A stretch of DNA of 64,000 nt from Rubrobacter xylanophilus (GTDB lineage: Bacteria; Actinomycetota; Rubrobacteria; Rubrobacterales; Rubrobacteraceae): NCBI RefSeq assembly GCF_007164525.1, contig NZ_AP019791.1, positions 1,041,501 to 1,105,500 of the forward strand, read 5' to 3'. Under the pieces are notes generated by a model, which saw only the letters and a program-made list of their open reading frames with translations, made no database searches and had not been told where the DNA came from. Positions 3,034 through 28,792 of this stretch are shown here, piece by piece. A program made the translations under genes and the position numbers. How positions within the stretch are numbered: the stretch's first letter is position 1; every line of letters begins with the position of its first letter.

Positions 3034-3804
3034 TCAGCCGCCCCGCGCCGCCTTCGCGTGCCGCTCGAAGAACTCCGCCGCGCGGCGGAGGATGAGGTCC
3101 GCGTCGTTGTCCAGCGTGGCGACGTGGTAGGAGTCCTCGAGCCAGAGCACCTCCCTCTCGGCGCTCGCCACGCGGCCCGCAATATACTCCGTGTTCGCCG
3201 GCGGGACGACGTGGTCCTCGCGCGAGACCACCGCGAGCATCGGGCACACGATGCGGGGCAGGAGCTCCTCCGCGGCCTTCATCAGGGCGAAGAGCTCCTT
3301 TATCGTCGGCACCGGGACCACCGGGTAAGCCAGCTCGGTCACGCCGGAAGCCTTGATGTCGTTGCCGACGCCCGGGACCTCGGCGGGCGCATCCTCCGCG
3401 AAGGCGAGGGAGGCCAGGTCCGGGTTGTTCACGAAGACGGCCGCGTTGATGGGCACGATCCCCGCGAACATCTCCGGGTGCCGGCCGGCCATGTACAGCG
3501 TGAGCGTCCCGCCCATCGAGAGCCCGGCCATGAACAGCGTCTCGCACCGCTCCCGCAGCCAGGAGGCGGCCCCCTCGATGTCCGCGACCCAGTCCGCCGC
3601 CGTGGCCGCCGCCATCTCCTCCGGCGTGGTCCCGTGCCCCCTCAGGCGCGGGAGCGCCACGGTGAAGCCGCGCTCCGCGAGCCCCTCGGCCAGCGGGCGC
3701 ATGCTCTGCGGCGAGCCCGTGTAGCCGTGTGAGACCAGCACGCCCGCCCTGCCTCCCTCGGCGTAGAACGGCTCCGCCCCCTCCATCACCCGAGCCTCGC
3801 TCAT
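3034..3804 (-). CDS. Alpha/beta hydrolase, carboxylesterase / monoacylglycerol-lipase type
   Basis: A 256-residue soluble alpha/beta hydrolase. The oxyanion-hole segment VLVSHGYTGSPQSMRPLAE is followed by the nucleophile elbow GLSMGG (Ser96). The acid is probably in VVSREDHVVPP and the histidine in DSYHVATLDND near the C-terminus. The organisation resembles thermostable Bacillus-type carboxylesterase/monoglyceride lipase. An upstream ATG at 3810 touches the GGGAGGG ribosome site, so the ATG at 3804 (7-nt spacing) is preferred. Last gene of the ammonia-lyase operon, 12 bp after the SDR stop. Its role there may be ester or CoA-thioester hydrolysis, which is not demonstrable from sequence. Confidence 0.8.
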   Translation of the reverse strand: MSEARVMEGAEPFYAEGGRAGVLVSHGYTGSPQSMRPLAEGLAERGFTVALPRLRGHGTTPEEMAAATAADWVADIEGAASWLRERCETLFMAGLSMGGTLTLYMAGRHPEMFAGIVPINAAVFVNNPDLASLAFAEDAPAEVPGVGNDIKASGVTELAYPVVPVPTIKELFALMKAAEELLPRIVCPMLAVVSREDHVVPPANTEYIAGRVASAEREVLWLEDSYHVATLDNDADLILRRAAEFFERHAKAARGG

Positions 3805-3816
3805 TCGCATCCCTCC

Positions 3817-4584
3817 CTAACGCGGCGCCATCCGCAGAGCGCCGTCGAGGCGTATGACCTCGCCGTTGAGCATCTCGTTCTCGACGATGTGCCGCGCGAG
3901 CGCCGCGTACTCCCCGGGTCTGCCGAGGCGTGGCGGGAACGGCACCTGCCTGCCCAAAGACTCACGCGCCGCCTCCGGGAGGGCGGCGAGCATCGGGGTG
4001 TCGAAGATCCCGGGGGCGATGGTGACGACCCTTATGCCGTGCTCGGCCAGCTCGCGCGCGACGGGCAGTGTCATGGCGACGACGCCGCCCTTTGAGGCCG
4101 AGTAGGCGGCCTGCCCGATCTGACCGTCGAAGGCGGCGACGCTGGCGGTGTTAACGATCACGCCCCGCTCGCCACCCTCCGTCGGCTCGTTCCCGGCCAT
4201 GGCGGCCGCCGCGAGCCGGATCGCGTTGAACGTCCCGACGAGGTTTATCTGCACGGCGCGCACGAAGTCCTCGAGCGGGTGTACGCCCTTCCTGCCGAGC
4301 ACCTTCTTCGCCGGACCTATCCCGGCGCAGTTGACGAGGCCGTGCAGCCCGCCGAAGCTCTCCACGGCCGCGTCCACCGCCCCCTGCACGCTGTCCCCGT
4401 CGGTGACGTCGGTGCGGACGAAGCGCGCCCTCTCCCCTATCTCCGAGGCCGTCTCCTTGCCGGCCTCCTCGTTCACGTCGGCGAGCACCACGCTCGCCCC
4501 ACCCTCCGCGAACAGGCGGGCGGTCGCCGCCCCGAGGCCCGAGCCCCCACCGGTGACGAGAAACGTCCTGTTCTCCAGCTGCAA
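3817..4584 (-). CDS. Short-chain dehydrogenase, 3-hydroxyacyl-CoA dehydrogenase (type II) like
   Basis: A 255-residue classical SDR. The nucleotide-binding [12 protein letters not shown] motif is at residue 11, followed by an acidic VVLADVNEE that favours NAD, then NCAG, the Ser in NTASVAAF and the YSASKGG catalytic Tyr/Lys. The overall pattern, including [20 protein letters not shown] near the end, matches 17-beta-HSD10-like 3-hydroxyacyl-CoA dehydrogenases. It starts at a TTG with a strong GGAGGGGG site 5 bp upstream, 18 bp after the thiolase stop. In this operon it would oxidise a 3-hydroxyacyl-CoA intermediate before thiolysis (inference). Confidence 0.85.
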
Positions 4585-4602
4585 GTCCCCCTCCTCTCTC
4601 CG

Positions 4603-5787
4603 TCAGTCCTCGACGCGCAAGACCAGCGCGGCCCCACTGTCCCCGGCGGCGCAGCCGGTGAAGAGCCCCACGCCTCCGCCCCGCAGCCTGAGCTCCTCGA
4701 CGAGCTCGGCGACGAGGCGCAGCCCCGTCGGCCCCTGCGGATGCCCGTAGACGAGGCTGGAGCCGTAGTTGTTCATCTTATCCTGCGGGAAGCCTAGCTT
4801 CCGGGAGAGGTGGACGTCGTTGACGGCGAAGGGGTTGTGGGTCTTTATCGCGTCCACGCCGTCCATCGAGAGCCCGGCCGCCTCCAGCGCGGCCAGGGCC
4901 GCGGGGACGGGTGCCTTGGGCATCCGGGCCCTCTCGACCCGCGCGAAGCCGACGGCGAGCAGCCTCACCACCCCCTCTCCCCCGCCGAGCTCGCGCGCCC
5001 GCTTCCCCGTGGTGACCAGCGCCCCCGCAGCCCCGTCGGCGGGGTGGGTCTGGCTCCCGAAGGTCACGACCCCGCCCCCGGTAACCGGCTTGAGCTTCGC
5101 GAGCCCTTCACGGGTGGTCGGGTAGACGCCGTGGTCCTCCTCTAGCAGAAGCGGCTTTCCGCGGGGGCGCGGTACCTCCACCGGGACCATGTAGCGCCTC
5201 TGGAAGGCGCGGTCGCCCGCGAGGGCCTCCCGGTACTGCTCGTAGCGCAGCAGGGTCACCTCGTCGAGCTCCTCGCGGGTGATCCCCTCCTCCGCGGCCA
5301 CGGCCTCGGCGGTGGCGACCATGGACTCTCCGGCCCAGGGGTCGCGGGCGAAGGCGTCGAGCACCCAGTGTTCCACCTCCGGAGCACCGCCCATGCCGGA
5401 GGGATTGGGGTAGAGGAGGGTGGGGCCGTTGGAGGTGCGGTCGGCGGTGACGACGAGGGTGGGCTCGGGGCCCGCGGAGGCGGCGGCCGCGGCGAGACAG
5501 GCCACCGAGGTGGCGCAGGCCTGCGAGATCATCGGTCCGGTCACCGCCGGGGCCCCGAGGCGGGCGGCGAGGGTGGGGGCGCCGTAGAAGATCTCCTTCT
5601 GGGGGACGGTCCATCCGAAGACGAGAGAGCCCGTCTCCCCGGGGTCGAATCCCCGCTCCTCGAGCGCCCGCCCGGTGACCCGGACGGCGAGCTCCAGGCC
5701 GCTCACCTCGGCGAGCGGCCCCTGCCAGCGGGCGAAGGGCGAGGACCAGAGGAAACCTGCGGGGATGCAGGCGTCCCGGAACCTCAT
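4603..5787 (-). CDS. Thiolase-family acyltransferase
   Basis: A 394-residue thiolase-fold enzyme with nucleophile Cys91 in ISQACATSVACLAAAA. The second-site block is NNYGSSLVYGHPQGPTG (His of the GHP motif) and the C-terminal cysteine lies in GLFTGCAAGDSGAA. The C-terminal cysteine loop is divergent from the usual CxGGGQG, so this belongs to a non-standard subgroup rather than a biosynthetic acetyl-CoA acetyltransferase. Its start overlaps the ligase stop by 4 bp (ATGA), implying coupled translation. Expected reaction: CoA-dependent cleavage of a 3-oxoacyl-CoA. With the lyase and ligase, 3-oxo-3-phenylpropionyl-CoA is a reasonable candidate substrate. Confidence 0.85.
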   Translation of the reverse strand: MRFRDACIPAGFLWSSPFARWQGPLAEVSGLELAVRVTGRALEERGFDPGETGSLVFGWTVPQKEIFYGAPTLAARLGAPAVTGPMISQACATSVACLAAAAASAGPEPTLVVTADRTSNGPTLLYPNPSGMGGAPEVEHWVLDAFARDPWAGESMVATAEAVAAEEGITREELDEVTLLRYEQYREALAGDRAFQRRYMVPVEVPRPRGKPLLLEEDHGVYPTTREGLAKLKPVTGGGVVTFGSQTHPADGAAGALVTTGKRARELGGGEGVVRLLAVGFARVERARMPKAPVPAALAALEAAGLSMDGVDAIKTHNPFAVNDVHLSRKLGFPQDKMNNYGSSLVYGHPQGPTGLRLVAELVEELRLRGGGVGLFTGCAAGDSGAALVLRVED

Positions 5788-7415
5788 TCGGCACCCTTCT
5801 GCTTGCGGGCGCGCTCCTCCTGGGCGAGCACCCTCCTCAAGAGCTTGCCCACCGCGCTCTTGGGCAGCTCCTCCCGAAACTCCACCGCTTTGGGTACCTT
5901 GTAGGGGGCAAGCTCGCCCCTGCAGTGCTCCACGAGATCTTCCTCCGTGAGGGCGCTCCCTTCCTTCCTGACCACAAAGGCCTTCACCACCTCCCCCCGG
6001 TAGGGGTCGGGACTCCCCACTACGACCGCCTCCACAACCTCCGGGTGGGCGTAGAGCACCTCTTCGACCTCCCGGGGATAGACCTTGTAGCCGCTTACGT
6101 TGATCATGTCCTTCTTGCGGTCGACGATGTACAGGTAGCCCTCTTCGTCCATCCGGACGATGTCGCCCGTGTAGAGCCAGCCGTCCCTGAGGGCCTTCTC
6201 GGTCTCCCCGGGCATGTTCCAGTAGCCCTTCATGACCTGGGGGCCTTTCACGAGGAGTTCGCCGGGCTCGCCCGGGGGCATCTCCCGCTCCCCGGTCTCG
6301 GGGTCCACGACGCGCACGTCGGTACCGGGGATCGGCACCCCGACGCTCCCGGGAACCGGGCCCCTGAGGTAGGTGTTGAACGAGACCGGCGCCCCCTCGG
6401 AGAGGCCGTAGCCCTCCCAGATGTCGCGGCCGGTCTTCTGCTTGAAGGAGCGCATGAGCCCCACGGGCACGCTGGCCCCGCCGGAGGTGTAGAGCAGGAC
6501 CTCGTCGAGCCCGTACTTCTCCATCTCCGGGTAGCTGTGCAGCGCCATGTACAGGGTGGCGACCCCGGCGAGCATTATGGGCCTCTCGCGCTTTATGAGC
6601 TGCATCATCTCGTCGGGCTGGAACTTCGGGACGAGCAGCAAATTCCAGCCGTGCCGGAGGCTGAAGAGCAGCACCATGGTCATCCCGAAGATGTGGAAGA
6701 GCGGGGCCACGGCGACGACCCTGCCGTTCTCGGGGAAGTCCTCGGGGTTCTCGATGAGGAGGTCTATGGTCTGCTGCACCCCGCCGAGCAGGTTACGGTG
6801 GGTGAGCATCGCGCCCTTGGAGATCCCGGTGGTCCCGCCGGTGTACTGGATGGAGGCCAGGTCCTCAACCGGGTCTATCTCCACTTCGGGCGGCGGACCG
6901 GAGGCCGAATCCAGAAAGCGCTCGAAGGAGAGATCTCCGTCGGCCAGGCCGCCCTCGGGCTCCCCGACGCACACCACGCGTCGCAGTGGGGTGCGCGGCT
7001 GGACGTCCTTGACCTTCGGGTACATGGCGGCGTGCACCACGGCGGTCTCCGTGCCGGAGTTGGAGAGGATGTGCTCCAGCTCGCGCCCGACGTAGAGGGG
7101 GTTTATCTGGGTCGCGGCCGCCCCGGTGCGCACGATGCCGAAGAAGCCTATGACGTACTCCGGGCAGTTGGGGAGCATGAGCCCCACCCGGTCGCCCTTG
7201 CGCACCCCGGCCCCGTGCAGCGCGGCGGCGAAGCCTTCCGAGAGCTCGAGCAGCTCCCGGTAGGAGATCGCGCGCTCCCCCATGGTCAGAGCGGTGTGCG
7301 AGGGGAAGCTGCGTGCCGCGTTCTCCAGAAAGGCGGGCAGGCTCTCCTCGATGACCCTGGGCGGTATCCTGTCCCCGTAGACCTTCAGCCAGGGACGTCC
7401 CTCTTCCCGCAGCAT
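5784..7415 (-). CDS. AMP-forming acyl-CoA ligase (long-chain / aryl acid type)
   Basis: A 543-residue class I adenylate-forming enzyme. The P-loop-like motif IQYTGGTTGISKGAMLTHRN is near residue 185, with YGLSEGAPVSFN (A5), GWLYTGDIVRMDEEGY (A7), DRKKDMINVSGYKVYPREVE (A8) and the catalytic Lys in PKSAVGKLLRR (A10). It resembles FadD-type ligases, which include 4-coumarate/cinnamate ligases, so chain class cannot be fixed from sequence. AAAGGAGGAG precedes the ATG. Position directly after an ammonia-lyase gene (19 bp) suggests activation of an arylpropenoic acid such as cinnamate. Confidence 0.9.
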   Translation of the reverse strand: MLREEGRPWLKVYGDRIPPRVIEESLPAFLENAARSFPSHTALTMGERAISYRELLELSEGFAAALHGAGVRKGDRVGLMLPNCPEYVIGFFGIVRTGAAATQINPLYVGRELEHILSNSGTETAVVHAAMYPKVKDVQPRTPLRRVVCVGEPEGGLADGDLSFERFLDSASGPPPEVEIDPVEDLASIQYTGGTTGISKGAMLTHRNLLGGVQQTIDLLIENPEDFPENGRVVAVAPLFHIFGMTMVLLFSLRHGWNLLLVPKFQPDEMMQLIKRERPIMLAGVATLYMALHSYPEMEKYGLDEVLLYTSGGASVPVGLMRSFKQKTGRDIWEGYGLSEGAPVSFNTYLRGPVPGSVGVPIPGTDVRVVDPETGEREMPPGEPGELLVKGPQVMKGYWNMPGETEKALRDGWLYTGDIVRMDEEGYLYIVDRKKDMINVSGYKVYPREVEEVLYAHPEVVEAVVVGSPDPYRGEVVKAFVVRKEGSALTEEDLVEHCRGELAPYKVPKAVEFREELPKSAVGKLLRRVLAQEERARKQKGAE

Positions 7416-7434
7416 TTTCCGGCTCCTCCTTTCC

Positions 7435-9042
7435 CTAGAATCCCAGCGCCCGGGAGAGCTCCCGGGAACGGATCATCTCCACCACCCGGCGGATGTCCTC
7501 CTCCATCCGCCGGTCCCCGTCGAGGAAGGACACCCGCTCGCGCACCATCCGGTGGGCCTCCCGCGTCCTCGGGGACATCTCCTGTCTTCCCCGCAGGTCC
7601 AACGCCTGACAGACGGCGATGAGGTGGATGGCGGCCACGTTCTGCACGAGCTCCACGATGGTCCTGGCGTCCCGCGCCGCTATGGTCCCCATGCTGACCT
7701 TGTCCTGGTTGTGGGCCTCGGTGGAGCGGGAGTGGACGCTCACCGGGTTCGAGAGCTTGCAGGCCTCGGCGACCAGGGAGGAGCAGGCGAGCTGCATCCC
7801 CTTGAAGCCGTGATGCAACCCCGCCCGCGGATCGTCCGGGTCGAAACGGGGGATGAGGTTGGGCGTGAGACCGTTGTTGAACTTCTCGTCCACCACGAGC
7901 TCCAGCTGCCGGTCCATCAGGTCGGCGACGCTGGCGAGCGCCACCTTAAGGGAGTCCATGGCCTGCACGATGTGCCCGCCGTAGAAGTTGCCCCCGCTGT
8001 GGACGGTGCGCCCTTCCGCGTCGAAGAGCGGGTTGTCGTCGGAGGAGTTGATCTCGACCTCCACCCACCGCCGGACCCAATCGAGGGTGTCCCTGAGCAC
8101 CCCGTTTACGTGCGGCGCGCAGCGGATGGAGTATTTGTCCTGGATGTTGCGCTCGAGCTCCCTGTAGCCTCTCCCCCCGAGGCCGTCGCCGGAGAGTACC
8201 TGATCTATCTCCGTGGAGAGCCCCGAACCCTCCAGCAGCTCCCGGATGACGCGCGCGCTCTCCGCCTGCCCCGGATGCGGCTTGTTCTCGTGGATGAACG
8301 GGTGGAAGTGCGCCCGGTTGCCGAGCAGCGCCTCGGAGGCCATCGCGGTGCACAGGTCGCAGACGAAGGCCACCTCCTCGGCATCCCACACTGCGAGCAC
8401 AGCGAAAGCGCTCATGAAGGAGGTGCCGTTGGTCAGCGCGAGCCCCTCCTTGGCCTCGAGCTCCACGGGCTCGAGCCCCAGCTCCTCCATAACCTCCCCG
8501 ACGGGACGCCAATCCCCGCGGTGGAGCACCTCGCCGTGGCCGGTGAGCGCGGAGCCCACATAAGAGAGCGGGACGAGATCCCCGCTCGCCCCGCACGATC
8601 CCCGCTCCGGAATGGGCGGTAGCAGGTCGTGGTTTATGAACGCCAGCAGCAGCTCCACGAGCTCCCGACGAACCCCGGAGTTGCCCCGGGCCAGACAGTT
8701 GGCCCGCAGCAGCATGGTCGCCCGCACGACCTCGGGAGGCGCCAGCGGCCCCACTCCGTTGCCGAGGAAACGCAAGATGTTCTTCTGTAGCTCGGCGGTC
8801 TTCCCTGCGGAGATCTGACGGTGCGCACTATCCCCGAAGCCCGTGGTGACCCCGTAGATGGGCCGCCCGGAGGAGATCAACTCCCGCTTCAGCCCGTTGG
8901 TCTCCTCTACACCGCGGATCGCCCCGCCGGATAGTACACACTCGCCGGAGCCCCCCCGCGCTACAGTAACTACATCTTCCAACCCCAGCGAACGACCGTC
9001 CAGCTCCAGCCTGTAACCAGACACAGGTAAGGTCTCACTCAT
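7435..9042 (-). CDS. Aromatic amino acid ammonia-lyase (MIO family), Phe-type pair
   Basis: A 535-residue HAL/PAL/TAL-family lyase. The MIO cofactor triad Ala-Ser-Gly is at 152-154 in GSCGASGDLVPLSYVG, and the catalytic Tyr63 is in YGVTTGFGD. The substrate-selectivity pair, at RFLGNGVG (Phe92-Leu93), is F-L, as in phenylalanine-specific enzymes. HAL normally has S-H and TAL H-L. It would deaminate L-phenylalanine to trans-cinnamate plus ammonia. The ATG at 9042 aligns with family N-termini, and the frame runs 30 codons further upstream without similarity. First gene of a five-gene operon with CoA ligase, thiolase, SDR and hydrolase. Selectivity is inferred from two residues. Confidence 0.85.
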   Translation of the reverse strand: MSETLPVSGYRLELDGRSLGLEDVVTVARGGSGECVLSGGAIRGVEETNGLKRELISSGRPIYGVTTGFGDSAHRQISAGKTAELQKNILRFLGNGVGPLAPPEVVRATMLLRANCLARGNSGVRRELVELLLAFINHDLLPPIPERGSCGASGDLVPLSYVGSALTGHGEVLHRGDWRPVGEVMEELGLEPVELEAKEGLALTNGTSFMSAFAVLAVWDAEEVAFVCDLCTAMASEALLGNRAHFHPFIHENKPHPGQAESARVIRELLEGSGLSTEIDQVLSGDGLGGRGYRELERNIQDKYSIRCAPHVNGVLRDTLDWVRRWVEVEINSSDDNPLFDAEGRTVHSGGNFYGGHIVQAMDSLKVALASVADLMDRQLELVVDEKFNNGLTPNLIPRFDPDDPRAGLHHGFKGMQLACSSLVAEACKLSNPVSVHSRSTEAHNQDKVSMGTIAARDARTIVELVQNVAAIHLIAVCQALDLRGRQEMSPRTREAHRMVRERVSFLDGDRRMEEDIRRVVEMIRSRELSRALGF

Positions 9043-9088: not shown

Positions 9089-9102
9089 TTTGACCGGTTA
9101 GT
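9089..9102. promoter_or_regulatory. Operator-like pseudopalindrome upstream of the ammonia-lyase operon
   Basis: TTTGACCGGTTAGT lies 47-60 bp before the lyase start. It matches 7 of 10 defined positions of the ACYGNNCGNNCRGT pattern also seen at the paaA, ALDH and paaH/crotonase promoters. The flanking sequence contains CAGTTTAA and GATACA-like elements but no convincing sigma-A pair. Confidence 0.4.
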
Positions 9103-9141
9103 CAGTTTAACAGATCGGGGCGCTGCCGGCAAGCGGGGTGG

Positions 9142-9582
9142 TCAGGAGTGTGGGGTGCTGTGGCGGTGGGCGATCTCGGCGGCCTCGGCGAGGAAGCGGG
9201 CGACGGCCTCGCGCTCGGAAGGGGACATCCTTTCCTCGAGGGCCTGTATATCCAGTATGTAGGGCCGCAGGCGGCGAAAGGGCTCGTCGACCCCCTTCCC
9301 GGTGACGCGGACAAGAGAGCTGCGGCGGTCGGCGGGGTTCGGCGCGCGCTCCACGTACCCCCTCTGCTCCAGACGATCCACCAGAGCCGTCACCGCCCCC
9401 GGGCTCATCGAGAGCCGCGCCCCAAGCTCCCCCATCGTCATCGGCCCCGCAGACTGCAGGTGCTCCAGCGCCGCAAGCTCCGAAACCTCCAGCCCCATCC
9501 GCTTGGCCAGCGTAAAAAGGTACCGGACCACCGCCGAAGAGTGGACCCGCATCAGAGCCCCTATCCCCCCGAATCTTGACAT
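9142..9582 (-). CDS. MarR-family transcriptional regulator
   Basis: A 146-residue winged-helix protein. The DNA-binding region spans LAALEHLQSAGPMTMGELGARLSMSPGAVTALVDRLEQRGYVERAPNPADRRSSLVRVT, with the signature wing DRR, flanked by N- and C-terminal dimer helices. The ATG at 9582 directly abuts a long palindrome and has no Shine-Dalgarno. An internal ATG at 9552 follows GGGGGATAGGGG and is an alternative start. It lies between the lyase operon (same strand) and a divergent membrane-protein gene. Autoregulation through the palindrome is likely, and control of the lyase operon is possible because MarR proteins often sense aromatic acids. Confidence 0.85.
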   Translation of the reverse strand: MSRFGGIGALMRVHSSAVVRYLFTLAKRMGLEVSELAALEHLQSAGPMTMGELGARLSMSPGAVTALVDRLEQRGYVERAPNPADRRSSLVRVTGKGVDEPFRRLRPYILDIQALEERMSPSEREAVARFLAEAAEIAHRHSTPHS

Positions 9583-9609
9583 CAAATATTTTTACAGTAA
9601 AAATATTTG
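9583..9609. promoter_or_regulatory. 27-bp palindromic operator between divergent genes
   Basis: Two perfect 13-bp arms, CAAATATTTTTAC and GTAAAAATATTTG, meet around a single A. The site is A/T-rich in a very GC-rich region, lies immediately upstream of the MarR start and ends 33 bp before the TspO-like start. This is the classical position for a MarR dimer site repressing both directions. Confidence 0.7.
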
Positions 9610-12206: not shown

Positions 12207-13969
12207 AGCGGGGGACCAGCAGGGGCGAGCACCCGCCCGGACTTCACCTCCAGAAGCCCGCGCGGGGTCAGCCGAACCGCGGGCAGAAAGTCGCAGGTCA
12301 GGAAGAGCAGGGTGTAGAGGATGTCGTGGAAGGGATAGCCGCGGGACCTGAGCTCGCCGGAGAGGCGCCGGTTGTGTGAGACCACCTCCGCGAAGCTCCC
12401 CGGGGACATCATCCCGCAGACGGGCAGGGGCAGCTCGAAGACCACCCGGCCGTCCGCGACGATGGCTATCCCGCCGCCCATCTGTCGCACGCGGGCGGCA
12501 GCCCGGCCCATCGCCCGGGGGTCACGCCCGACGACGAGCAGCTGGGTGGTGGTGTTGTAGGTGCTGGCGAGGCCCTCGAGGCGCTCCCCGGCGAAATTTG
12601 AGAGCAACGCCCGGCTCACGCCTCTCCCCTCCCGGTCCACCAGCGCCGCGTAGAGCAACTCTCCGGGCGCCCCGCGCAGCCGTACGAGCCCCTCCGCCTC
12701 CGGGAGGCTCTCCTCCCGGAGGCGGGTTATGACCGCAGAGACCAGCTCCACGACCGGTATCTTCCCGCGGGGGTCGGTGGACCGCGGCGGATAGAGGCGC
12801 GGGTCCTCCAGCGGGAGGGAGGGATCGAACCGCGGGCGGGCGCCGTAGCCCTCCCAGTCGGGGGAGGGCAGCGGCACCAGGAGGTCTCCCCCCTCGGCCA
12901 CGATCCGGCCGCCGCAGATCACGGTCTCCGGCCGAAAGGAGGAGAGATCCGGTAGAAGGAGGATGTCCGCCCGGCGGCCGGGGGCGAGGCCGCCCAGTTC
13001 GTGATCCCGGCGCATCCAGGTCGCCGGGTTGAGGGTGACCATCCGGAGGGCCTGTATCGGGTCGACCCCGCCCTCCACGGCGGTCCGGAGCAGGCCGTCG
13101 ACGAGACCGTGCTCGGCGATGTGCTCCGGGCTCGAGCCGTCGGTCGTCAGGATCAGGCGCCGGGTGCTCACCCCCTCCTCGGTGACCGCCCGAAGCAGCT
13201 CCGGCAGGTCGGGCCTGAGCGAGCTGTGGCGGAGCATGGTCCAGAGCCCCAGGCGGAGGCGCGAGAGCGCCTCGCCGGCGGAGATGGCCTCGTGGTCGGC
13301 CGTGATCCCGGCGGCGACCAGCGCCGGCAGGCGCGCCTCGGAGGCCCCGCCGGTGTGCCCGTCGGAGACCTTGTTCGCCTGCCGGGCCCGGGCGATCCCC
13401 TCCAGCAGGTGCCCGTCCCCGGCGGCCAGGGCGGGCCAGCGCGTGATCTCGGCCGTCCCGATCACGTCCTCCCTGGCGAGCAGGTCGGCCGCCGCCTCGG
13501 GCGAGAAGAGCCGCCGCTCCCCAGGAAACTCGGACTGCGAGATGAGTCGGGCCACCCACAGGTAGTTGACGGGAAGCCCCCGCAGGTCGTCGAGCATCCA
13601 GGCGAGGCGCTCGGGTCCCATCTGCAGGTGGAAGAAGAGGGTGTCGGCCACCACGGTGGTGGTCCCGAGCGTGGCCGCCACCCCGGCGAGGCTCACCGGA
13701 TCGTAGAGCACCCAGGGGTGGGTGTGGGCCTCGATGTAGCCGGGGGCGACGATGGCGTCACCGGCCTCCACGACGTGGGTGTCCGGCCCGGGCGCGGGAG
13801 GACTCTGACCGACGTAGGCTATGGCACCTCCACTGACCGCCACGTCCGCCCGCAGCAGCTCGCCCGAGTACACGTTCGCCACCGTCCCGCCCCGCACGAG
13901 GAGGTCCGGGGGTTCCTCTCCCCGGGCGACCGCCAGCAGGCGCCGGTGCTCTTCGGAGCCCACCCTCAC
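12203..13969 (-). CDS. ade: Adenine deaminase-like amidohydrolase
   Basis: A 588-residue amidohydrolase, the usual size for adenine deaminase. The N-terminal composite beta domain contains LLVRGGTVANVYSGELL. The metal-binding barrel has APGYIEAHTHPW (residue ~75), H in DGHTGGASEARLPALVAAGITADHE and D in LTTDGSSPEH. The C-terminal Ade-type domain is present. The usual HVHIES is replaced by HTHPWVL, so substrate could differ from adenine. The GTG start overlaps the MBL hydrolase stop (GTGA), so it is coupled to the acyl-CoA dehydrogenase/MBL unit. Confidence 0.75.
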   Translation of the reverse strand: MRVGSEEHRRLLAVARGEEPPDLLVRGGTVANVYSGELLRADVAVSGGAIAYVGQSPPAPGPDTHVVEAGDAIVAPGYIEAHTHPWVLYDPVSLAGVAATLGTTTVVADTLFFHLQMGPERLAWMLDDLRGLPVNYLWVARLISQSEFPGERRLFSPEAAADLLAREDVIGTAEITRWPALAAGDGHLLEGIARARQANKVSDGHTGGASEARLPALVAAGITADHEAISAGEALSRLRLGLWTMLRHSSLRPDLPELLRAVTEEGVSTRRLILTTDGSSPEHIAEHGLVDGLLRTAVEGGVDPIQALRMVTLNPATWMRRDHELGGLAPGRRADILLLPDLSSFRPETVICGGRIVAEGGDLLVPLPSPDWEGYGARPRFDPSLPLEDPRLYPPRSTDPRGKIPVVELVSAVITRLREESLPEAEGLVRLRGAPGELLYAALVDREGRGVSRALLSNFAGERLEGLASTYNTTTQLLVVGRDPRAMGRAAARVRQMGGGIAIVADGRVVFELPLPVCGMMSPGSFAEVVSHNRRLSGELRSRGYPFHDILYTLLFLTCDFLPAVRLTPRGLLEVKSGRVLAPAGPPL

Positions 13970-14976
13970 GGCCGGAGCGGGGCGTAGATCGCAGGCTCCT
14001 CCTCCAGAAGCTCCGCCCGGCCCTCGTCCGCCAGGTGCTCCAGGTGGGCGAGGGTCTCGGCGAGGGCGAAGCGGAGCTGGTGCGGCGAGAGCTCCTCAGC
14101 GGGGAAGACCCTCCGGGCGATCTCGTACGGGGTCGCCGGGCATCCTCCGAAGGCCGCGTGCATCACCTCGAGCCGCTGCGCGTGGTGGGAGACCAGCTCA
14201 TCCACCCGGCCCGGAAGGTCGTGGAAGAGCGGGCCGTGCCCCGGCAGCACCAGATCGGCCGAAAGCCCGCTCAGCTCCCGGATCGAGGACAGGTAGCGCC
14301 GCAGGGGGCGGGGCGCGGTGTACGGCCAGAGCCCGATGTTCGGCGTTATCTTCAGCAGGAGCTGGTCCCCGGCGACGAGCATCCCGCGCTCCTCGTCGTG
14401 CAGGACGAAGTGGTAGTCCGAGTGGCCAGGGGTGTGGATGATCCGGGCCACCACCTCCCCCAGGCGGAGCTTCTCGCCGGGGTTAAGCGGCACGATCTCC
14501 TCAGGCACCCGGATCCCCAGGTCCGTCGTCCCGGCGGTGGGCCGGGCGGTCTCCTCGTCCATCCCGTTGCGCACCAGAAAGCGGACGAACTCCCCGAGAT
14601 CCCGCTCCGGATCCCACACCCTCCGGGCCACCTCGGCCTCCCGGGCGAGCATGAGGACCGGGGCCCCGGAGCGCTCCTGCAGCCAGCGGGCGAGCCCTAT
14701 GTGGTCCGGGTGCAGGTGGGTGACCACGATCCTCTCCACCCCGCGCCCCAGATCCAGGCCGACCCCGGAGGCCGCCGCCTCCCAGACCTCCCGGGCGGCC
14801 GGGTAGTCGAAGCCCGGGTCGACCACCGTCCAGCCCCCGGAACCGGCGAAAAGGTAGGAGGAGACGAAGCGCAGCGGGAAGGGCACCGGGAGCTTCAGCT
14901 GGTAGACGCCCTCGGCGACCGCCGCGATCTCCCCCACCGGCTGGCCGCCGAGCCGCGAGGGAGCCACGCCGCTCAA
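13966..14976 (-). CDS. MBL-fold metallohydrolase (paralogue 1)
   Basis: A 336-residue metallo-beta-lactamase-fold hydrolase. Zinc ligands are in VTHLHPDHIG (HxHxDH), HTPGHSDYHFVLHDE, AGDQLLLKITPN and PGHGP. A helical C-terminal domain ends LAETLAHLEHLADEGRAEL. The TTG at 14976 is selected because the resulting N-terminus aligns with the ATG-started paralogue at 46455-47489, both carrying the xxxVAPSRL motif. It overlaps the GcdH stop by 4 bp. Probably a thioesterase or glyoxalase-II-like hydrolase acting on a CoA ester or lactone, given its tie to acyl-CoA dehydrogenases in both clusters (inference). Confidence 0.85.
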   Translation of the reverse strand: MSGVAPSRLGGQPVGEIAAVAEGVYQLKLPVPFPLRFVSSYLFAGSGGWTVVDPGFDYPAAREVWEAAASGVGLDLGRGVERIVVTHLHPDHIGLARWLQERSGAPVLMLAREAEVARRVWDPERDLGEFVRFLVRNGMDEETARPTAGTTDLGIRVPEEIVPLNPGEKLRLGEVVARIIHTPGHSDYHFVLHDEERGMLVAGDQLLLKITPNIGLWPYTAPRPLRRYLSSIRELSGLSADLVLPGHGPLFHDLPGRVDELVSHHAQRLEVMHAAFGGCPATPYEIARRVFPAEELSPHQLRFALAETLAHLEHLADEGRAELLEEEPAIYAPLRP

Positions 14977-16178
14977 CGGAACGCCTCGATCCCGGTCAGC
15001 GCGGCTCCCACCACGAGGGTGTGCACTTCGTCGGTCCCCTCGTAGGTGCGCACGCTCTCCAGGTTGTTCGCGTGTCTCAAGGGCGGGTAGTCCAGCGTCA
15101 CCCCGTTGCCGCCCAGGATCGTGCGCGCCTCCCGGGCGACCTTGATCGCCTCCCGCACGTTGTTGAGCTTGCCGAGCGAGATCTGCTGGTGCTTCAGGGT
15201 GCCCGCGTCCTTCATCCTCCCGAGGTGCAGCGCCAGAAGCAGCCCCTTCTGGATCTCCACGACCATGTCCGCGAGCTTTTTCTGGGTGAGCTGGAAGGAG
15301 GCGATGGGCCTCCCGAACTGCTCCCGCCGCAGCGCGTACTCGAGCGCGCACTCGTAGCAGTCCCTCGCCGCCCCCATCGAACCCCAGATGATACCGTAGC
15401 GCGCCTCGTTGAGACAGCCGAACGGAGCCCGAAGTCCCACCGCGCCGGGTAACACGGAATCCCCCGAAACCCTCACGTCCCGCAGCTCGACGTCGCACTG
15501 CACGCTCGCGCGCATGCTGAGCTTGGGCTCTATATTCCTGGCTGCGAAGCCCGGTGTTCCGGTGGGGACCAGGAAGCCCCTCACCGGGTTGCCCTCCTCG
15601 TCGGTGCGCGCCCAGATCACCGCCACGTCCGCGATGGAGGCCATCCCGATCCAACGCTTCGAGCCGCTTATGACCCAGTCCGCCCCCTCCCTGCGGGCGA
15701 AGGTCTTCATGCTCGCCGGGTCGCTCCCGGCCCCGGGCTCGGTGAGGCCGAAACAGCCTACCGCCTCGCCGCGGGCCATCCTCGGCAGCCACTCCCGCTT
15801 CTGCTCCTCGGAGCCGTACCTGTGGATGGCGCTCATCGCCAGCGAGCCCTGCACGCTCACGAACGTCCTTATCCCGGAATCCCCCGCCTCGAGCTCCATG
15901 CACGCGAGCCCGTACTCCACCGCGCTCCTCCCGGCGCAGCCGTATCCCTCGAGGTGCATCCCCAGAAGCCCGAGCTCCCCCATCTCCGGGACGAGCTCCC
16001 TCGGGAAATGCGCCCTCTCGTACCACTCCTTTATGTGCGGCCGAACCCTCTCCCGCACGAAGGAGCGGACCCGATCGCGGACCGCAAGCTCCTCTTCGGA
16101 CAGGAAGGCATCGAGCCCCAGAAAGTCGTGCGGGTCTACGGCGCGCGCCGCGATCCCGCCGCCGGCCCTTGCGGACAT
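14973..16178 (-). CDS. gcdH: Acyl-CoA dehydrogenase, glutaryl-CoA dehydrogenase type
   Basis: A 401-residue FAD acyl-CoA dehydrogenase. Features characteristic of glutaryl-CoA dehydrogenase are RTFVSVQGSLAM with the arginine that contacts the distal carboxylate, CFGLTEPGAGSDPASMKT, the FAD contacts REQFGRPIASFQLTQKKLADM, and the catalytic Glu in RTYEGTDEVHTLVVGAALTG. GGAGGATGCTGG precedes the ATG. It heads the gcdH-MBL-ade unit, and a possible -10 (TATAGACT) lies in the 70-bp gap to the TetR gene. Likely oxidises (and may decarboxylate) glutaryl-CoA or a related dicarboxyl-CoA, a lower step of aromatic or lysine catabolism. Confidence 0.85.
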   Translation of the reverse strand: MSARAGGGIAARAVDPHDFLGLDAFLSEEELAVRDRVRSFVRERVRPHIKEWYERAHFPRELVPEMGELGLLGMHLEGYGCAGRSAVEYGLACMELEAGDSGIRTFVSVQGSLAMSAIHRYGSEEQKREWLPRMARGEAVGCFGLTEPGAGSDPASMKTFARREGADWVISGSKRWIGMASIADVAVIWARTDEEGNPVRGFLVPTGTPGFAARNIEPKLSMRASVQCDVELRDVRVSGDSVLPGAVGLRAPFGCLNEARYGIIWGSMGAARDCYECALEYALRREQFGRPIASFQLTQKKLADMVVEIQKGLLLALHLGRMKDAGTLKHQQISLGKLNNVREAIKVAREARTILGGNGVTLDYPPLRHANNLESVRTYEGTDEVHTLVVGAALTGIEAFR

Positions 16179-16248: not shown

Positions 16249-16920
16249 TCAGGCGCAGTCCTCCCGGGAGGACCACTTCCCCTCCCGTCCGTCGCCGGAG
16301 GTCAGGTAGGAGAGCACCGCCCGTTCGCAGAGGCTCCGGTAGCGGGCGTGGGTCTTCTCCCAGTCCCGCTCCAGTACCCACTGGATGAACAGCCCGTCGA
16401 TGAGGGCCCGGACCACGGTCGCGGCCTCCCGGGTCTCGCCCACCCGGAAGACCCCCTCCTCTTTGCCGAGCCGGACCACCTCCTCGTACAGGCCGGTCAC
16501 GATCTCCTGGAAGGTCGCCCCCACGTCCCCGAAGCGGTCCGTGCGGGCGGCGTGCCCCAGGAAGTCGAAGAAGACCAGGTAGAAGCTGCGGTTGGAGACG
16601 GGGTCTATGAAGATCGCATCCACCATCGCCGAGACCTTCTCCTCGGCCCCCTCCGCCCGGGACATGGCCTCCCGGATGCGCCGGGCCACCCGGGCGAGCA
16701 CCCAGCGCATGGTCGTGACCATCAGGTTCTCCTTGGAGGCGAAGTAGTAGGGTAGGATGGCCTTGCTGACCCCGGCCTCGTCGGCGACGTCCTGCAGGGA
16801 GAGGTTGTTCATCCCTTTCTCGCCCATGACCTTGTAGGCGCTGCGCACGAGGCGCTCCTGCTTGGGCGGCAGCGCCTCGACCTCGAGCGCGGCCGGAGCG
16901 AAGCCCTTGCCCCGCTCCAT
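16249..16920 (-). CDS. TetR-family transcriptional regulator
   Basis: A 223-residue TetR protein. The N-terminal HTH runs through SLQDVADEAGVSKAILPYYFASKENLM (residues ~40-66), followed by an all-helical ligand domain. It begins 2 bp after the stop of the enoyl-CoA hydratase and is therefore the last gene of the paa operon. It is the best local candidate for the repressor that binds the shared ACYGNNCGNNCRGT sites, including the one inside the paaA promoter, probably released by an aryl-CoA. That link is inference from position. Confidence 0.85.
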   Translation of the reverse strand: MERGKGFAPAALEVEALPPKQERLVRSAYKVMGEKGMNNLSLQDVADEAGVSKAILPYYFASKENLMVTTMRWVLARVARRIREAMSRAEGAEEKVSAMVDAIFIDPVSNRSFYLVFFDFLGHAARTDRFGDVGATFQEIVTGLYEEVVRLGKEEGVFRVGETREAATVVRALIDGLFIQWVLERDWEKTHARYRSLCERAVLSYLTSGDGREGKWSSREDCA

Positions 16921-16922
16921 CT

Positions 16923-17699
16923 CTAGCCCCGCCTCCCGAACTCGGGCCTGCGCTTCTCGGTGAACGCCCTTATGCCTTCCTGCGCATCCGGGCTCTCGAA
17001 GAGCCCCTCGATGAGCTCCCGCTCCAGCGCGAGCCCCTCCTCCAGAGACCGCTCGATCCCCTCGTGCACCGCGCGCTTTATCTTGCCGATGGCCTCGGAG
17101 GCCCCGCGCGCCAACCCCTCGGCGTACTGGCGGGTGCGCTCCTCGAGCTCCCCGGCCGGGAAGAGGCGGTCCAGGATGCCGAGCTCGTGGGCCTCGGCGG
17201 GCGAGAGCCTGCGCCCGGTGACCATGAGATCCAGGGCCCGGCTCCGGCCGATGAGGCGCGGCAGGCGCTGGGTCCCGCCGTTGCCGGGCAGCAGCCCGAG
17301 CGTGACCTCCGGCAGCCCCAGGTAGTACTCGCCCTCGGCCCCGAAGCGCAGGTCGCAGGCGAGCGCGATCTCCAGCCCCCCGCCCAGGGCGGTGCCGGAG
17401 ATCTGGGCGATGAACACCTTGGGCACCTCCGCTATCCGGGCCAGGTTCCGGTGGGCCTCCCGGATCATGCGCATGTTCTCCTCGGTGGTCGAGGCCGCGA
17501 AGGCCTTCACGTCGGCCCCGGCCGAGAAGAAGCGCTCGTTGGCGCTGCGCAGGACGACCGCCCCGGCCCCCGCGTCCTCCTCGGCCGCCCGGACGGCCTC
17601 CCCCAGTTCGCGCATGAACTCGTAGTCGTAGCTGTTGGCCGGGGGCCTGTCCAGGGTGATGTACCCGACGACCCCCTCCCGGTCGTAGCTGACCGCCAT
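16923..17699 (-). CDS. Enoyl-CoA hydratase/isomerase
   Basis: A 258-residue crotonase. The oxyanion hole is RFFSAGADVKAF, the first catalytic Glu is in GTALGGGLEIALACD and the second is in GLPEVTLGLLPGNGGTQRL, so both hydratase glutamates are kept. The start at ATG 17699 is chosen because similarity begins there. The reading frame continues over 130 codons upstream only as a shadow of the ALDH. It lies in the paa operon after an aldehyde dehydrogenase and would act as a PaaF/PaaG-like hydratase or isomerase on ring-opened CoA esters. Confidence 0.88.
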   Translation of the reverse strand: MAVSYDREGVVGYITLDRPPANSYDYEFMRELGEAVRAAEEDAGAGAVVLRSANERFFSAGADVKAFAASTTEENMRMIREAHRNLARIAEVPKVFIAQISGTALGGGLEIALACDLRFGAEGEYYLGLPEVTLGLLPGNGGTQRLPRLIGRSRALDLMVTGRRLSPAEAHELGILDRLFPAGELEERTRQYAEGLARGASEAIGKIKRAVHEGIERSLEEGLALERELIEGLFESPDAQEGIRAFTEKRRPEFGRRG

Positions 17700-17716
17700 G
17701 TGGGATCCCCCCTCCG

Positions 17717-19162
17717 CTAGTCCAGTCCTCCTATGACAACCGACTTGCTCTCGAGATAATACTCCAGGGCCTCCGGCCCGTGCTCGCGGCCTACGCCGGA
17801 ATCCTTCACGCCGCCGAAGGGCAGCTCGTCGTAGCCGTAGTGCAGCTGGTTGACCCACGTCATCCCGGCCTCTATCTCCTGGGCGGCACGATGGATCCAG
17901 CGGATGTTCCGGGTCCAGATGGAGGAGCCGAGCCCGTAGCGGGAGTCGTTGGCGAGCCGCAGGGCCTCGTCGAGATCCCCGACCCGGAAGACCGGAAGCA
18001 GCGGCCCGAAGGTCTCCTCGCGCACCACCCGGCTGTCGTGCGGAGCCCCCTCGATGACCGTCGGCGGGAAGAAGTACCCCTTCTCGCCGCTCCACTCGCC
18101 CTGGTAGACGACCTCAGCTCCCCGGCTCACCGCCTCCTCCAGCTGGGAGGAGACCTGATCCCGGTAGCGGGCGCTGTTCATCGGGCCCATCCTTATCTTG
18201 GGCTTCTCGGCCTTCGTGAGCCCATCACCGAGCTCGTAGCGGGAGACCCGCCTGATCAAGCCCTCCATGAACTCGTCGTAGACCTCCTCGAAGACGTAGA
18301 CCCGCTTGGCCGCGAGGCACGCCTGCCCCGCGTTGAAGAACCGCCCGATGTTCACCCCCTTGACGGCGGCGTCCACGTCGGCGTCGGGGCAGACGATGAC
18401 CGGGTCCGATCCCCCGAGCTCCACGCTCACCCGCTTGAACCGCGGGCCGGCGAGCTCCATGATCCTGCGCCCCACCTCGGTCGAGCCGGTAAAGGCCACC
18501 CGGCGCACGTCCGGGTGCGCCACGAGCGCCTCGCCGACCTCGGGCCCCTCGCCCGTCACCACGTTGAACACCCCGGCCGGGAGCCCGGCCTCGGCGAAGA
18601 GCTCAGCGACCCTGAGGGTGGCCAGCGGGGTGGTCTCCGCCGGCTTGACGACCACGGTGTTCCCCCCCGCGAGCGCCGGCCCGACCTTGGTCCCCATGAG
18701 GGTGAGCGGGAAGTTGAACGGCACGATCGCCGCGCACACCCCCACCGGGCGCTTTATGACCATCCCGTAGCTCCTGCCCAGGCTGGAGGGCAACGGAGCG
18801 TAGGCGCCCCGGATCTTGCTCGCCAGATCGGCGTAGAAGTCCATGCCGTGAATGAAGTGGTGCAGCTCGCCCATGGCCTCGGAGAGGGGCTTGCCCTGCT
18901 CCCGCACGAGCAACTCGGCGATCTCACGCCCCCGCTCCTTCACGGCCGCGATGCCGGCCCGCATGATAGCGGCCCGCTCGTCGGGATCTTTACCGGACCA
19001 CTCCGCGAGCGCGCCCTTCGCAGCGGCGACCGCCGCCTCCGCGTCCTCGGCGGTACCCTTGGGAACGGTGTCTATGACCTCCTCGGTGGCGGGGTTGACG
19101 ACCGGCATCTCCCCGCCGCTCTTTGCCGAGACCCGCTCGCCACCTACGAGAAGCTGAGCCAT
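17717..19162 (-). CDS. NAD(P)-dependent aldehyde dehydrogenase
   Basis: A 481-residue ALDH. Landmarks are IVPFNFPLTLMGTKVGPAL, the nucleotide-fold FTGSTEVG, the general-base Glu in VSVELGGSDPV and the nucleophile Cys in FFNAGQACLAAKR. It lacks the C-terminal MaoC-like hydratase domain of PaaZ, so it is not a full PaaZ. Similar to the ALDH at 25974-27419, probably an ancient paralogue. ATG at 19162 lies 1 bp after the stop of the preceding hexapeptide gene. In the paa operon it may oxidise a semialdehyde from ring cleavage. Confidence 0.88.
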   Translation of the reverse strand: MAQLLVGGERVSAKSGGEMPVVNPATEEVIDTVPKGTAEDAEAAVAAAKGALAEWSGKDPDERAAIMRAGIAAVKERGREIAELLVREQGKPLSEAMGELHHFIHGMDFYADLASKIRGAYAPLPSSLGRSYGMVIKRPVGVCAAIVPFNFPLTLMGTKVGPALAGGNTVVVKPAETTPLATLRVAELFAEAGLPAGVFNVVTGEGPEVGEALVAHPDVRRVAFTGSTEVGRRIMELAGPRFKRVSVELGGSDPVIVCPDADVDAAVKGVNIGRFFNAGQACLAAKRVYVFEEVYDEFMEGLIRRVSRYELGDGLTKAEKPKIRMGPMNSARYRDQVSSQLEEAVSRGAEVVYQGEWSGEKGYFFPPTVIEGAPHDSRVVREETFGPLLPVFRVGDLDEALRLANDSRYGLGSSIWTRNIRWIHRAAQEIEAGMTWVNQLHYGYDELPFGGVKDSGVGREHGPEALEYYLESKSVVIGGLD

Positions 19163-19163
19163 A

Positions 19164-19715
19164 TCACATCCCTCCCTTCCCGGGTTCGCCCGCGAGGGCC
19201 CCGAGCTCTCTGATGTACCTGAGGCGCAGCGCCCGGTACTCCCGGGCCGCACCCTCTACCCAGTCCCCGGAGCTACCGCCGAGCTCCTTCTTCACCCGGG
19301 CGGGCACCCCGGCGGCGAGTACCCCGGCGGGGATCTCCTGCCCCTCGCGCACCACGGTGCCCGCCGCGAGCATCGCCCGGGCGCCGACCCGGGCCCGCTG
19401 CAGAACCACCGCGCCCATCCCAACCAGCGCCCCATCCTCGACGGTGCAGCCCTCCAGCATCGCCATGTGCCCCACGGTGACCCCGGAACCCACCAGCGTC
19501 GGCCGGTCCTCCGCGGTGTGGATCACGCAGTTGTCCTGCACCGCGCTCCCGCGCCCGATGACGATGCGGTTGAAGTCCGCGCGCAGCACCGCACCGAACC
19601 AGATGCTGGCCTCCTCCTCGATGACCACGTCCCCGATGAGCACCGCCGTCGGGGCGACGAAGGCCCCGGGGGCCACCTGCGGCTCTTTCCCTTCGAACGG
19701 GTAGAGGTATGCCAT
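19164..19715 (-). CDS. paaY: Gamma-carbonic-anhydrase-like hexapeptide protein, PaaY type
   Basis: A 183-residue left-handed beta-helix protein of hexapeptide repeats. The zinc-type histidines are visible in NCVIHTAEDRP and VTVGHMAML. The third position, usually a His in a LHGC motif, is Glu here (MAMLEGC), so metal binding may be changed or lost. PaaY proteins occur in many phenylacetate clusters as thioesterase-like accessories. The ATG at 19713-19715 overlaps the zinc-ribbon stop by one base. Confidence 0.75.
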   Translation of the reverse strand: MAYLYPFEGKEPQVAPGAFVAPTAVLIGDVVIEEEASIWFGAVLRADFNRIVIGRGSAVQDNCVIHTAEDRPTLVGSGVTVGHMAMLEGCTVEDGALVGMGAVVLQRARVGARAMLAAGTVVREGQEIPAGVLAAGVPARVKKELGGSSGDWVEGAAREYRALRLRYIRELGALAGEPGKGGM

Positions 19716-19837
19716 TACTTGCGGATCGCCTCGAAGGGGTTGTGGCAGTCCCGGCAGATGTACTGCGAGACCATGAGGTGCGGCCCGAACTCGGCGACCT
19801 TCTCCACCTCCCCGGAGCCGCACCAGGGACAGCTCAC
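19715..19837 (-). CDS. Stand-alone PaaD-type C-terminal zinc ribbon (40 aa)
   Basis: A 40-residue ORF read VSCPWCGSGEVEKVAEFGPH to its midpoint and ending DCHNPFEAIRK. Four cysteines form CPWC and CRDC knuckles. The pattern (CPxCGS, E, FG, xYxCxxC, PFE) is that of the C-terminal zinc ribbon of full-length PaaD, whose N-terminal MIP18/DUF59 domain is encoded separately at 21072-21377. The GTG at 19837 overlaps the paaC stop (GTGA), and an adjacent GTG at 19840 is an alternative. GGGGGAGAGGA lies upstream. Together with the short PaaD it would support metal-centre maturation or folding of the PaaA oxygenase. Confidence 0.8.
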   Translation of the reverse strand: MSCPWCGSGEVEKVAEFGPHLMVSQYICRDCHNPFEAIRK

Positions 19838-28732: not shown

Positions 28733-28792
28733 CAGTTTTTGAGGCATTATACTGCGGCAGGGAGTTTGGGCGGAAGAGAGGAGCATAGGTCA

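Follow-up and report, generated by a model that had tools for sequence, protein, structure and literature searches.

The genome of Rubrobacter xylanophilus analyzed here (Rubrobacter group; a single contig of 3.02 Mb, NZ_AP019791.1) encodes a putative phenylalanine ammonia-lyase (PAL), raising the question of what a bacterium would use such an enzyme for. Bacterial phenylalanine breakdown is usually drawn through phenylpyruvate and phenylacetate or through tyrosine. We examined a stretch of 64,000 nucleotides around the lyase gene (positions 1,041,501 to 1,105,500), hereafter the window; all coordinates are those of the window. The lyase heads an operon that we consider likely to perform deamination-first catabolism of phenylalanine or cinnamate to benzoyl-coenzyme A (benzoyl-CoA), followed by ring epoxidation by a nearby Paa-type oxygenase, with one TetR operator over both halves. 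The evidence comes from the published PAL activity of an ortholog and from gene conservation, linkage, and a shared sequence pattern in the DNA.

The operon comprises five open reading frames (ORFs), all on the minus strand between 3034 and 9042 and all with coding-like guanine-plus-cytosine (GC) content by codon position. A previous sequence-only reading had described five co-directional genes here; all are present, with gaps of 19, -4 (an overlap), and 18 bp as it gave them, and a last gap of 6 or 12 bp depending on the start chosen for the hydrolase. Family matches were Lyase_aromatic (573 bits), AMP-binding (301 bits), the thiolase N- and C-terminal domains (63 and 79 bits), adh_short (172 bits), and Hydrolase_4 (87 bits).

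Over 535 residues, the lyase is 90% identical to its ortholog in genome G001, which appears to be RxPAL itself (handles beginning with G denote genomes, those beginning with L denote loci). RxPAL, from R. xylanophilus, is described in the main text of PMC3903478 as assayed on L-phenylalanine, with an S153A control at the serine of the 4-methylideneimidazole-5-one (MIO) cofactor. The MIO serine of the window lyase carries the same number, 153, within the tripeptide ASG (152-154). According to the same text, the selectivity pair FL denotes PAL, SH denotes histidine ammonia-lyase (HAL), and HL or HQ denotes tyrosine ammonia-lyase (TAL); the window enzyme has FL (F92 L93), in agreement with the PAL assignment of the sequence-only reading. 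A lyase acting on histidine alone, the case which that reading had named as refuting it, was rejected: the pair is FL rather than SH, the genome carries a separate SH-type (HutH-like) lyase, and the hutH model scored 465.6 bits against a cut-off of 539.15. Among 106 lyase rows from 108 loci, in which some genomes appear twice, the pairs were FL (38), YH (43), SH (15), FM (4), and others (6).

In an NCBIfam scan of the operon proteins, the best 25 of 106 matches were all below cut-off, and among the matches listed, the lyase exceeded the threshold of no named model. The PAL model TIGR01226 (680 positions), which we take to be built on plant and fungal enzymes, gave 373.7 bits against a cut-off of 519.15. 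The best-named model among the matches listed was the BagA/FevW tyrosine ammonia-lyase (764.6 bits, cut-off 1000). This model does not separate the motifs: two YH lyases scored 884 and 703 bits and one FL lyase scored 708. The window lyase may act on tyrosine as well. The 43 YH rows fall among L062-L131 and L204, and the two scanned are both below the BagA/FevW cut-off.

For the ligase, short-chain dehydrogenase/reductase (SDR), and thiolase, homology is compatible with the proposed substrates. The best solved relative of the ligase is 4-coumarate-CoA ligase (3a9u, 299 bits), ahead of fatty-acid ligases, which is consistent with the earlier proposal of a cinnamate-type rather than a fatty-acid-type enzyme; its top hidden Markov model (HMM) names among the matches listed are "long-chain-fatty-acid--CoA ligase," all below cut-off. 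The nearest solved structures to the SDR are type-II 3-hydroxyacyl-CoA dehydrogenases (368 bits). The thiolase is remote from named models among the matches listed (176.5 vs 240.55 bits). Its Cys91, His317, His349, and Cys379 are kept in 15 of 15 copies, the window's and a second G001 copy included; HNPF or HDPF stands where NEAF, the usual thiolase motif, would be; and its predicted structure (predicted local distance difference test [pLDDT] score of 84) matches thiolase folds. An Ltp2-type retro-aldolase in place of a thiolase was rejected on the basis of the four conserved catalytic residues and the predicted fold. The second G001 copy (L226) is shorter and lies beside a PaaK-like ligase, ~98 kb from the first.

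Gene order and protein identity across relatives indicate that the operon is conserved rather than assembled by chance. The lyase-ligase-thiolase order is kept in five of eight relatives' loci (L028, L031, L032, L034, and L035), and L030 retains lyase and ligase before its contig ends; identities of the operon proteins in these six loci are 68-90%. The contig of L033 stops after the lyase. The SDR comes next in L028, L031, and L032, and also in L029, from Rubrobacter taiwanensis, where it is the same protein at 73% identity, the ligase is unrelated (27%), and the thiolase passes the TIGR01930 cut-off. This combination in R. taiwanensis suggests that the function has been retained rather than the exact proteins, and the locus has the appearance of gene replacement inside one pathway. 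The hydrolase was matched in none of the eight relatives' loci (L030 and L033 being cut short by contig ends) and is probably outside the pathway.

A second cluster (13966-28694, minus strand) lies 5-20 kb from the operon, with a crotonase gene diverging from it at 28739. It encodes a PaaA-like di-iron oxygenase subunit with PaaB-, PaaC-, and PaaD-like proteins, as well as a benzoate-CoA ligase family protein that scores 610.9 bits with TIGR02262 (cut-off 375.25), a subfamily model spanning more than one substrate. PAL, ligase, and thiolase are adjacent; candidate hydratases are found ~8 and ~20 kb from the lyase. The distance between the lyase and PaaA genes is 12.3 kb in the window, 12.4 kb in G001, 7.4 kb in G002 and G014, and 27.3 kb in G010; in G007, G011, and G025, the two are on different contigs. 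Both genes also fall inside the 19.6 kb fetched from a Thermoleophilaceae metagenome-assembled genome (L063) and from Solirubrobacter CPCC 204708 (L065). Of the 24 stretches fetched around PaaA, 14 contain a benzoate-CoA ligase of at least 53% identity, as does one more stretch, from G290.

Co-occurrence extends this linkage beyond Rubrobacter. A thiolase ortholog is present in 14 of 396 Actinomycetota genomes, and the divergent PaaA described below accompanies it in 11 of the 14, vs 14 of the 382 genomes lacking the thiolase (Fisher 1.8e-12, ignoring ancestry and assuming from the tallies that the same 396 genomes underlie both searches). Three genomes have the thiolase without this PaaA (G022, G281, and G192); in G022, the contig with the lyase starts partway through the second cluster, and PaaA may therefore be missing from the assembly. 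The G290 thiolase lies 1.8 kb from a benzoate-CoA ligase gene. Among 35 Rubrobacteraceae, PaaA is found in 8 of 9 lyase-bearing genomes and in 8 of the 26 others (p 0.005; G018 and G372 left out).

The two halves also share an operator-like pattern, TGACTGWCCGGTCA. The best match out of 14 positions is 13 upstream of the lyase, 14 upstream of PaaA, 12 for the PaaH-like gene, and 11 for ALDH2. The 50 control upstream regions taken from the window all stayed below 11, and 7 reached 10; of 400 shuffles, none attained the observed score for the lyase, PaaA, or PaaH-like regions, and 16 did for ALDH2. Sites with three or fewer mismatches number 11 in the window vs 9.8 by chance, so what stands out is not the number of sites but the identity and position of the best-scoring ones. 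PaaA promoters of Rubrobacteraceae match at 12-14 positions in the 14 scored, window included (G013 and G025 left out). Further PaaA promoters gave 13-14 in six Actinomycetota, 11 in two Thermus, 9 in two haloarchaea, 9 in L063, and 10 in L065. Lyase promoters reach 12 in G002 and G014 (1/400 shuffles for G002) and 11 in G025 (13/400). Sites linked to the thiolase include one of 13 just upstream of the gene in G271 and others of 12 (G242) and 13 (G290) before thiolase-bearing gene strings. The TetR-family regulator of the second cluster is the putative owner of the shared operator, and the PaaR operator of Burkholderia cenocepacia, given as ACCGACCGGTCGGTT in PMC9493321, is similar in kind to the window pattern. 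A MarR-family gene, present in G001 too, lies upstream of the lyase, and the palindrome at 9583-9609 is possibly its operator; this palindrome is only partly alike in G001.

Taken together, these data suggest a pathway in which we infer every substrate after cinnamate, the regulator, and the oxygenase reaction. PAL would convert L-phenylalanine to trans-cinnamate and ammonia, and the operon ligase would form cinnamoyl-CoA. A crotonase from the neighboring cluster would hydrate it, the SDR would oxidize the resulting 3-hydroxy-3-phenylpropionyl-CoA, and the thiolase would split off acetyl-CoA to leave benzoyl-CoA, a pool also fed by the benzoate-CoA ligase. The Paa-type di-iron oxygenase would epoxidize the ring of benzoyl-CoA, crotonases and aldehyde dehydrogenases would open and oxidize the product toward beta-oxidation, and both halves would be controlled by a TetR regulator whose operator resembles TGACTGWCCGGTCA. 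Benzoyl-CoA as the product is supported by linkage and, as a sequence pattern, by the operator shared with the benzoate-CoA ligase/oxygenase cluster. The sequence-only reading had proposed the phenylalanine to benzoyl-CoA route for the operon, with its hydratase supplied by a crotonase elsewhere; the second cluster and the EncP/H/I/J precedent go beyond that reading. Comparison, linkage, and the shared pattern argue for that route, and the window offers two candidate hydratases; the hydrolase does not hold its place as a pathway member. The upper half may be a catabolic variant of known chemistry, and the lower half may represent a new oxygenase specificity.

We favor, with somewhat less confidence, a broader proposal: that the PaaADBBC-type complex is a further aerobic aryl-CoA epoxidase lineage, specific for benzoyl-CoA and operating without the lysine bridge of PaaA or BoxB/BoxC, in Rubrobacteraceae, Solirubrobacterales, other Actinomycetota, Thermus plasmids, and, more distantly, haloarchaea. 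In Rubrobacter, it would supply the ring opening in a complete phenylalanine catabolic pathway that starts with PAL and belongs to one TetR regulon. PaaA matches in the 396 genomes form two sets, one of 25 genomes at 62-100% identity, the window's among them, and another at 26-34%; five genomes carry one of each kind (G061, G125, G242, G290, and G316). With TIGR02156 (cut-off 280), five divergent proteins scored 110-139 bits (window, 116.2; G061, G105, a Thermus plasmid, and Haladaptatus; loci L152, L153, L198, and L201) and three canonical proteins scored 421-528 (L161, L163, and L165). A tree separates the two kinds with support of 100/100; the Agrobacterium row forms a long branch of unsure place. 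Annotated records of the divergent clade are nearly all labeled phenylacetate degradation.

Those labels would be correct if the operon makes benzoyl-CoA that is hydrolyzed, lost, or used elsewhere and the complex is a divergent phenylacetyl-CoA epoxidase in a phenylacetate cluster, a scenario we regard as unlikely. The PaaA, PaaC, PaaD, PaaY, and PaaH-like genes and the TetR regulator do resemble paa clusters, and the nearest fold to the PaaA AlphaFold model (pLDDT 91) is E. coli PaaA (template modeling [TM] score, 0.84), with BoxB less near (0.56-0.59 by query). PaaA is described in the review PMC4498308 with Phe108, Lys103, and a lysine bridge of Lys68 with Glu49, Glu72, and Asp126; PaaA and BoxB are stated there not to take each other's substrate. 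All 30 clade rows (one of them, L151, shortened by an in-frame stop) retain Phe108, and 27 of the 30 retain Lys103, the other 3 having Arg. The bridge, by contrast, is kept in six of six canonical rows and lost in all 30 clade rows (Glu49 to Tyr; Lys68 to Ile, Val, or Met). Glu42, Glu72, His75, and Asp126, acidic and histidine positions of the di-iron site, are conserved in 30 of 30. Further evidence against phenylacetate as the substrate comes from equivalog scores far under cut-off (PaaA, 116 vs 280; PaaC, 85 vs 133; PaaD, 70 vs 108), from the coexistence of both PaaA kinds in five genomes, from the benzoate-CoA ligase in the cluster, and from the PaaK search, in which a control genome passed the cut-off and none of eight genomes did (28.9 bits at best here, though G011 and G001 have nearer relatives at 468 and 263).

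Outside Actinomycetota, Thermus plasmid pTF24b carries a 74% PaaA relative with a benzoate-CoA ligase (65%), two aldehyde dehydrogenases, crotonases, PaaY, and TetR; the stretch from a second plasmid, pHB5018c, ended before the benzoate-CoA ligase region. Twelve haloarchaeal plasmids have PaaA relatives at 48-56% and one at 38%, and in Haladaptatus an annotated benzoate-CoA ligase family gene (41%) lies beside the PaaA relative. On two haloarchaeal plasmids (L200 and L201), the divergent PaaA cluster sits beside paired UbiD-family decarboxylases; in Haloterrigena, two CoA-transferase genes and one for a formate dehydrogenase are present as well. These gene sets perhaps convert phthalate to benzoyl-CoA. 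On an Agrobacterium plasmid (L202), a remote PaaA relative (38%) occurs together with genes annotated as coniferyl aldehyde dehydrogenase and PaaI-family thioesterase.

The cluster could instead act on a substituted benzoyl-CoA, such as anthraniloyl- or hydroxybenzoyl-CoA, with the PAL operon a neighbor that makes another product. The benzoate-CoA ligase matches an anthranilate-CoA ligase nearly equally (480 vs 488 bits), and TIGR02262 would accommodate this; we nevertheless judge the idea quite unlikely, as the operator pattern and thiolase co-occurrence tie the operon to the oxygenase. Kynureninase as an anthranilate source was rejected, being over cut-off in one of eight genomes, which was not the window's. 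Very unlikely is a biosynthetic operon in which cinnamoyl-CoA or benzoyl-CoA derived from the PAL reaction goes into a secondary product; according to PMC8773403, EncP and the beta-oxidation genes of the enc cluster play this part for enterocin in Streptomyces maritimus. Against it, the genes looked up (3-9.6 and 13.9-32.5 kb of the window) include no polyketide synthase or similar, and the neighboring genes are of the ring-degradation type and share the operator pattern. That ligase, thiolase, and SDR serve fatty-acid oxidation beside a lyase placed there by chance is extremely unlikely, since the fatty-acid HMM names among the matches listed for the ligase are, like all of the best 25 of 106, below cut-off, its best solved relative is 4-coumarate-CoA ligase, and the gene order is kept at 68-90% identity.

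Other routes for benzoyl-CoA or benzoate were also searched for. BoxB (TIGR03225) was over cut-off in none of nine genomes, and BoxC (TIGR03222) and gentisate dioxygenase in none of eight, with no control genome over cut-off in these searches; the gentisate route was rejected on this result, which lacks a positive control. A Rieske-type family was over cut-off in five of eight genomes and had no match in G002, G014, and G025, where a catechol/benzoate dioxygenase route is rejected; it is possible in the other genomes. In literature drawn mostly from outside subscription journals, no Paa-type benzoyl-CoA epoxidase was found, nor, among the titles and abstracts of the matches listed, bacterial PAL catabolism.

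Several observations count against the proposed deamination-first pathway. Its experimental basis stops at the PAL step, in an ortholog. The hydratase lies outside the operon, the SDR is not beside the lyase in L034 and L035, and R. taiwanensis (G010), which keeps the lyase and SDR, has a different ligase and a different thiolase. Among the genes looked up by family, a PaaE-type reductase did not appear, and the benzoate-CoA ligase has the near-equal anthranilate match noted above. PaaA is not found within ~9 kb of the lyase in five of seven full-length Solirubrobacterales loci (L060, L061, L064, L102, and L113; the short contigs L059 and L075 are outside the seven), and 10 of the 24 PaaA stretches, three of them contigs under 9 kb, have no benzoate-CoA ligase. 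The operator pattern was picked after the window promoters had been viewed; lyase promoters of G001 and G011 are at background (10 of 14), the pattern is absent before the lyases of G010, G007, L063, and L065 (8-9 of 14), and the thiolase stretches of G281, G356, and G192 contain no operator-like sites. The genome itself has a Rieske-type match (51.9 bits), and because no control genome passed, the sensitivity of the BoxB, BoxC, and gentisate searches is unproven here.

If true, a complete deamination-first route would explain why Rubrobacter keeps PAL and would provide thermophile enzymes for the chemistry of cinnamate and benzoate. Should the oxygenase act on benzoyl-CoA, members of this clade in Actinomycetota, Thermus, and haloarchaea would be mislabeled as "phenylacetic acid catabolic protein," and BoxB-independent use of benzoate would be directly testable, for example, in Thermus thermophilus strains with the plasmid cluster. 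Coordinates of all features are collected in Table 1. Elsewhere in the window, from 40000 to 64000, GC content drops from ~0.69 to ~0.61 and stays low to the window end, a profile like that of a genomic island or transferred segment.

Table 1. Genes and operator-like sites of the two clusters, in window coordinates
Feature	Coordinates	Strand	Basis or remark
Alpha/beta hydrolase (Hydrolase_4), probably accessory	3034..3810 (3034-3804 from second ATG)	-	
SDR, type-II 3-hydroxyacyl-CoA dehydrogenase-like	3817..4584	-	
Thiolase, proposed 3-oxo-3-phenylpropionyl-CoA (benzoylacetyl-CoA) thiolase	4603..5787	-	Cys91, His317 (HNPF), His349, Cys379
AMP-forming acyl-CoA ligase, 4-coumarate-CoA-ligase-like; proposed cinnamate-CoA ligase	5784..7415	-	Families, structure relatives
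PAL, 535 amino acids	7435..9042	-	Families, alignment, ortholog RxPAL (PMC3903478); MIO ASG 152-154, pair F92 L93
Operator-like site TGACTAACCGGTCA before lyase	9091..9104	-	1 mismatch to TGACTGWCCGGTCA
MarR-family regulator upstream of lyase	9142..9585	-	Families; start probably ~9582
Perfect 13+13 nucleotide palindrome, AT-rich	9583..9609	.	Between MarR start and divergent gene
Metallo-beta-lactamase (MBL)-fold hydrolase	13966..15000	-	
Acyl-CoA dehydrogenase	14973..16178	-	
TetR-family regulator, putative owner of shared operator	16249..16920	-	
Enoyl-CoA hydratase/crotonase; candidate cinnamoyl-CoA hydratase or ring-opening hydrolase	16923..17702	-	
Aldehyde dehydrogenase	17717..19165	-	
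PaaY-like hexapeptide protein	19164..19706	-	
PaaC-like subunit (PF05138)	19834..20664	-	
Small PaaB-like subunit 2	20664..20867	-	Position and relatives
Small PaaB-like subunit 1	20880..21071	-	Position and relatives; no HMM match
PaaD-like protein	21072..21380	-	Nearest named model, haloarchaeal PaaD
PaaA-like di-iron oxygenase subunit, divergent clade; proposed benzoyl-CoA epoxidase	21377..22327	-	
Operator-like site TGACTGTCCGGTCA before PaaA	22366..22379	-	0 mismatches
Amidohydrolase_2 family protein	22383..23264	-	
Zinc-type alcohol dehydrogenase	23269..24375	-	
Benzoate-CoA ligase family protein	24391..25956	-	TIGR02262
Aldehyde dehydrogenase 2 (ALDH2)	25974..27419	-	
Two weak operator-like sites before ALDH2	27528..27564	-	3 mismatches each
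3-Hydroxyacyl-CoA dehydrogenase, PaaH-like	27558..28694	-	Below cut-off
Operator-like site between divergent PaaH-like and ECH2 genes	28721..28734	-	2 mismatches
Enoyl-CoA hydratase (ECH2), second candidate cinnamoyl-CoA hydratase	28739..29596	+	

The proposed pathway can be set beside several known systems. In plants, a CoA-dependent route leads from phenylalanine through cinnamoyl-CoA to benzoyl-CoA; the chemistry proposed for Rubrobacter is the same, but the plant enzymes differ and form no operon. RxPAL resembles the window lyase in MIO Ser153, FL motif, and 90% identity (taking the ortholog's strain to be that of RxPAL), and PMC3903478 treats it as a biocatalyst, the words "operon" and "CoA" being absent from its main text. 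In the enterocin system, as outlined in the review PMC8773403, cinnamate comes from EncP, the path from there to benzoyl-CoA runs through EncI and beta-oxidation, and EncN is the benzoate-CoA ligase; this parallels the deamination, cinnamoyl-CoA shortening, and benzoate-CoA ligase proposed here. That system is biosynthetic and, according to the review, lacks a hydroxyacyl-CoA dehydrogenase gene, whereas the Rubrobacter operon includes an SDR and is linked to a ring oxygenase. The PaaABCDE phenylacetyl-CoA epoxidase and the window complex are alike in PaaA fold, di-iron positions, PaaC, PaaD, and small PaaB-like subunits; the window PaaA stands apart by clade (~30% identity) and by its missing lysine bridge, in a cluster that has a benzoate-CoA ligase, no PaaK over cut-off in the genome, and no PaaE seen among the genes looked up. 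BoxAB/BoxC would share the proposed substrate, benzoyl-CoA, but BoxB is only a distant fold match to the window oxygenase, and neither BoxB nor BoxC was over cut-off in the genomes searched.

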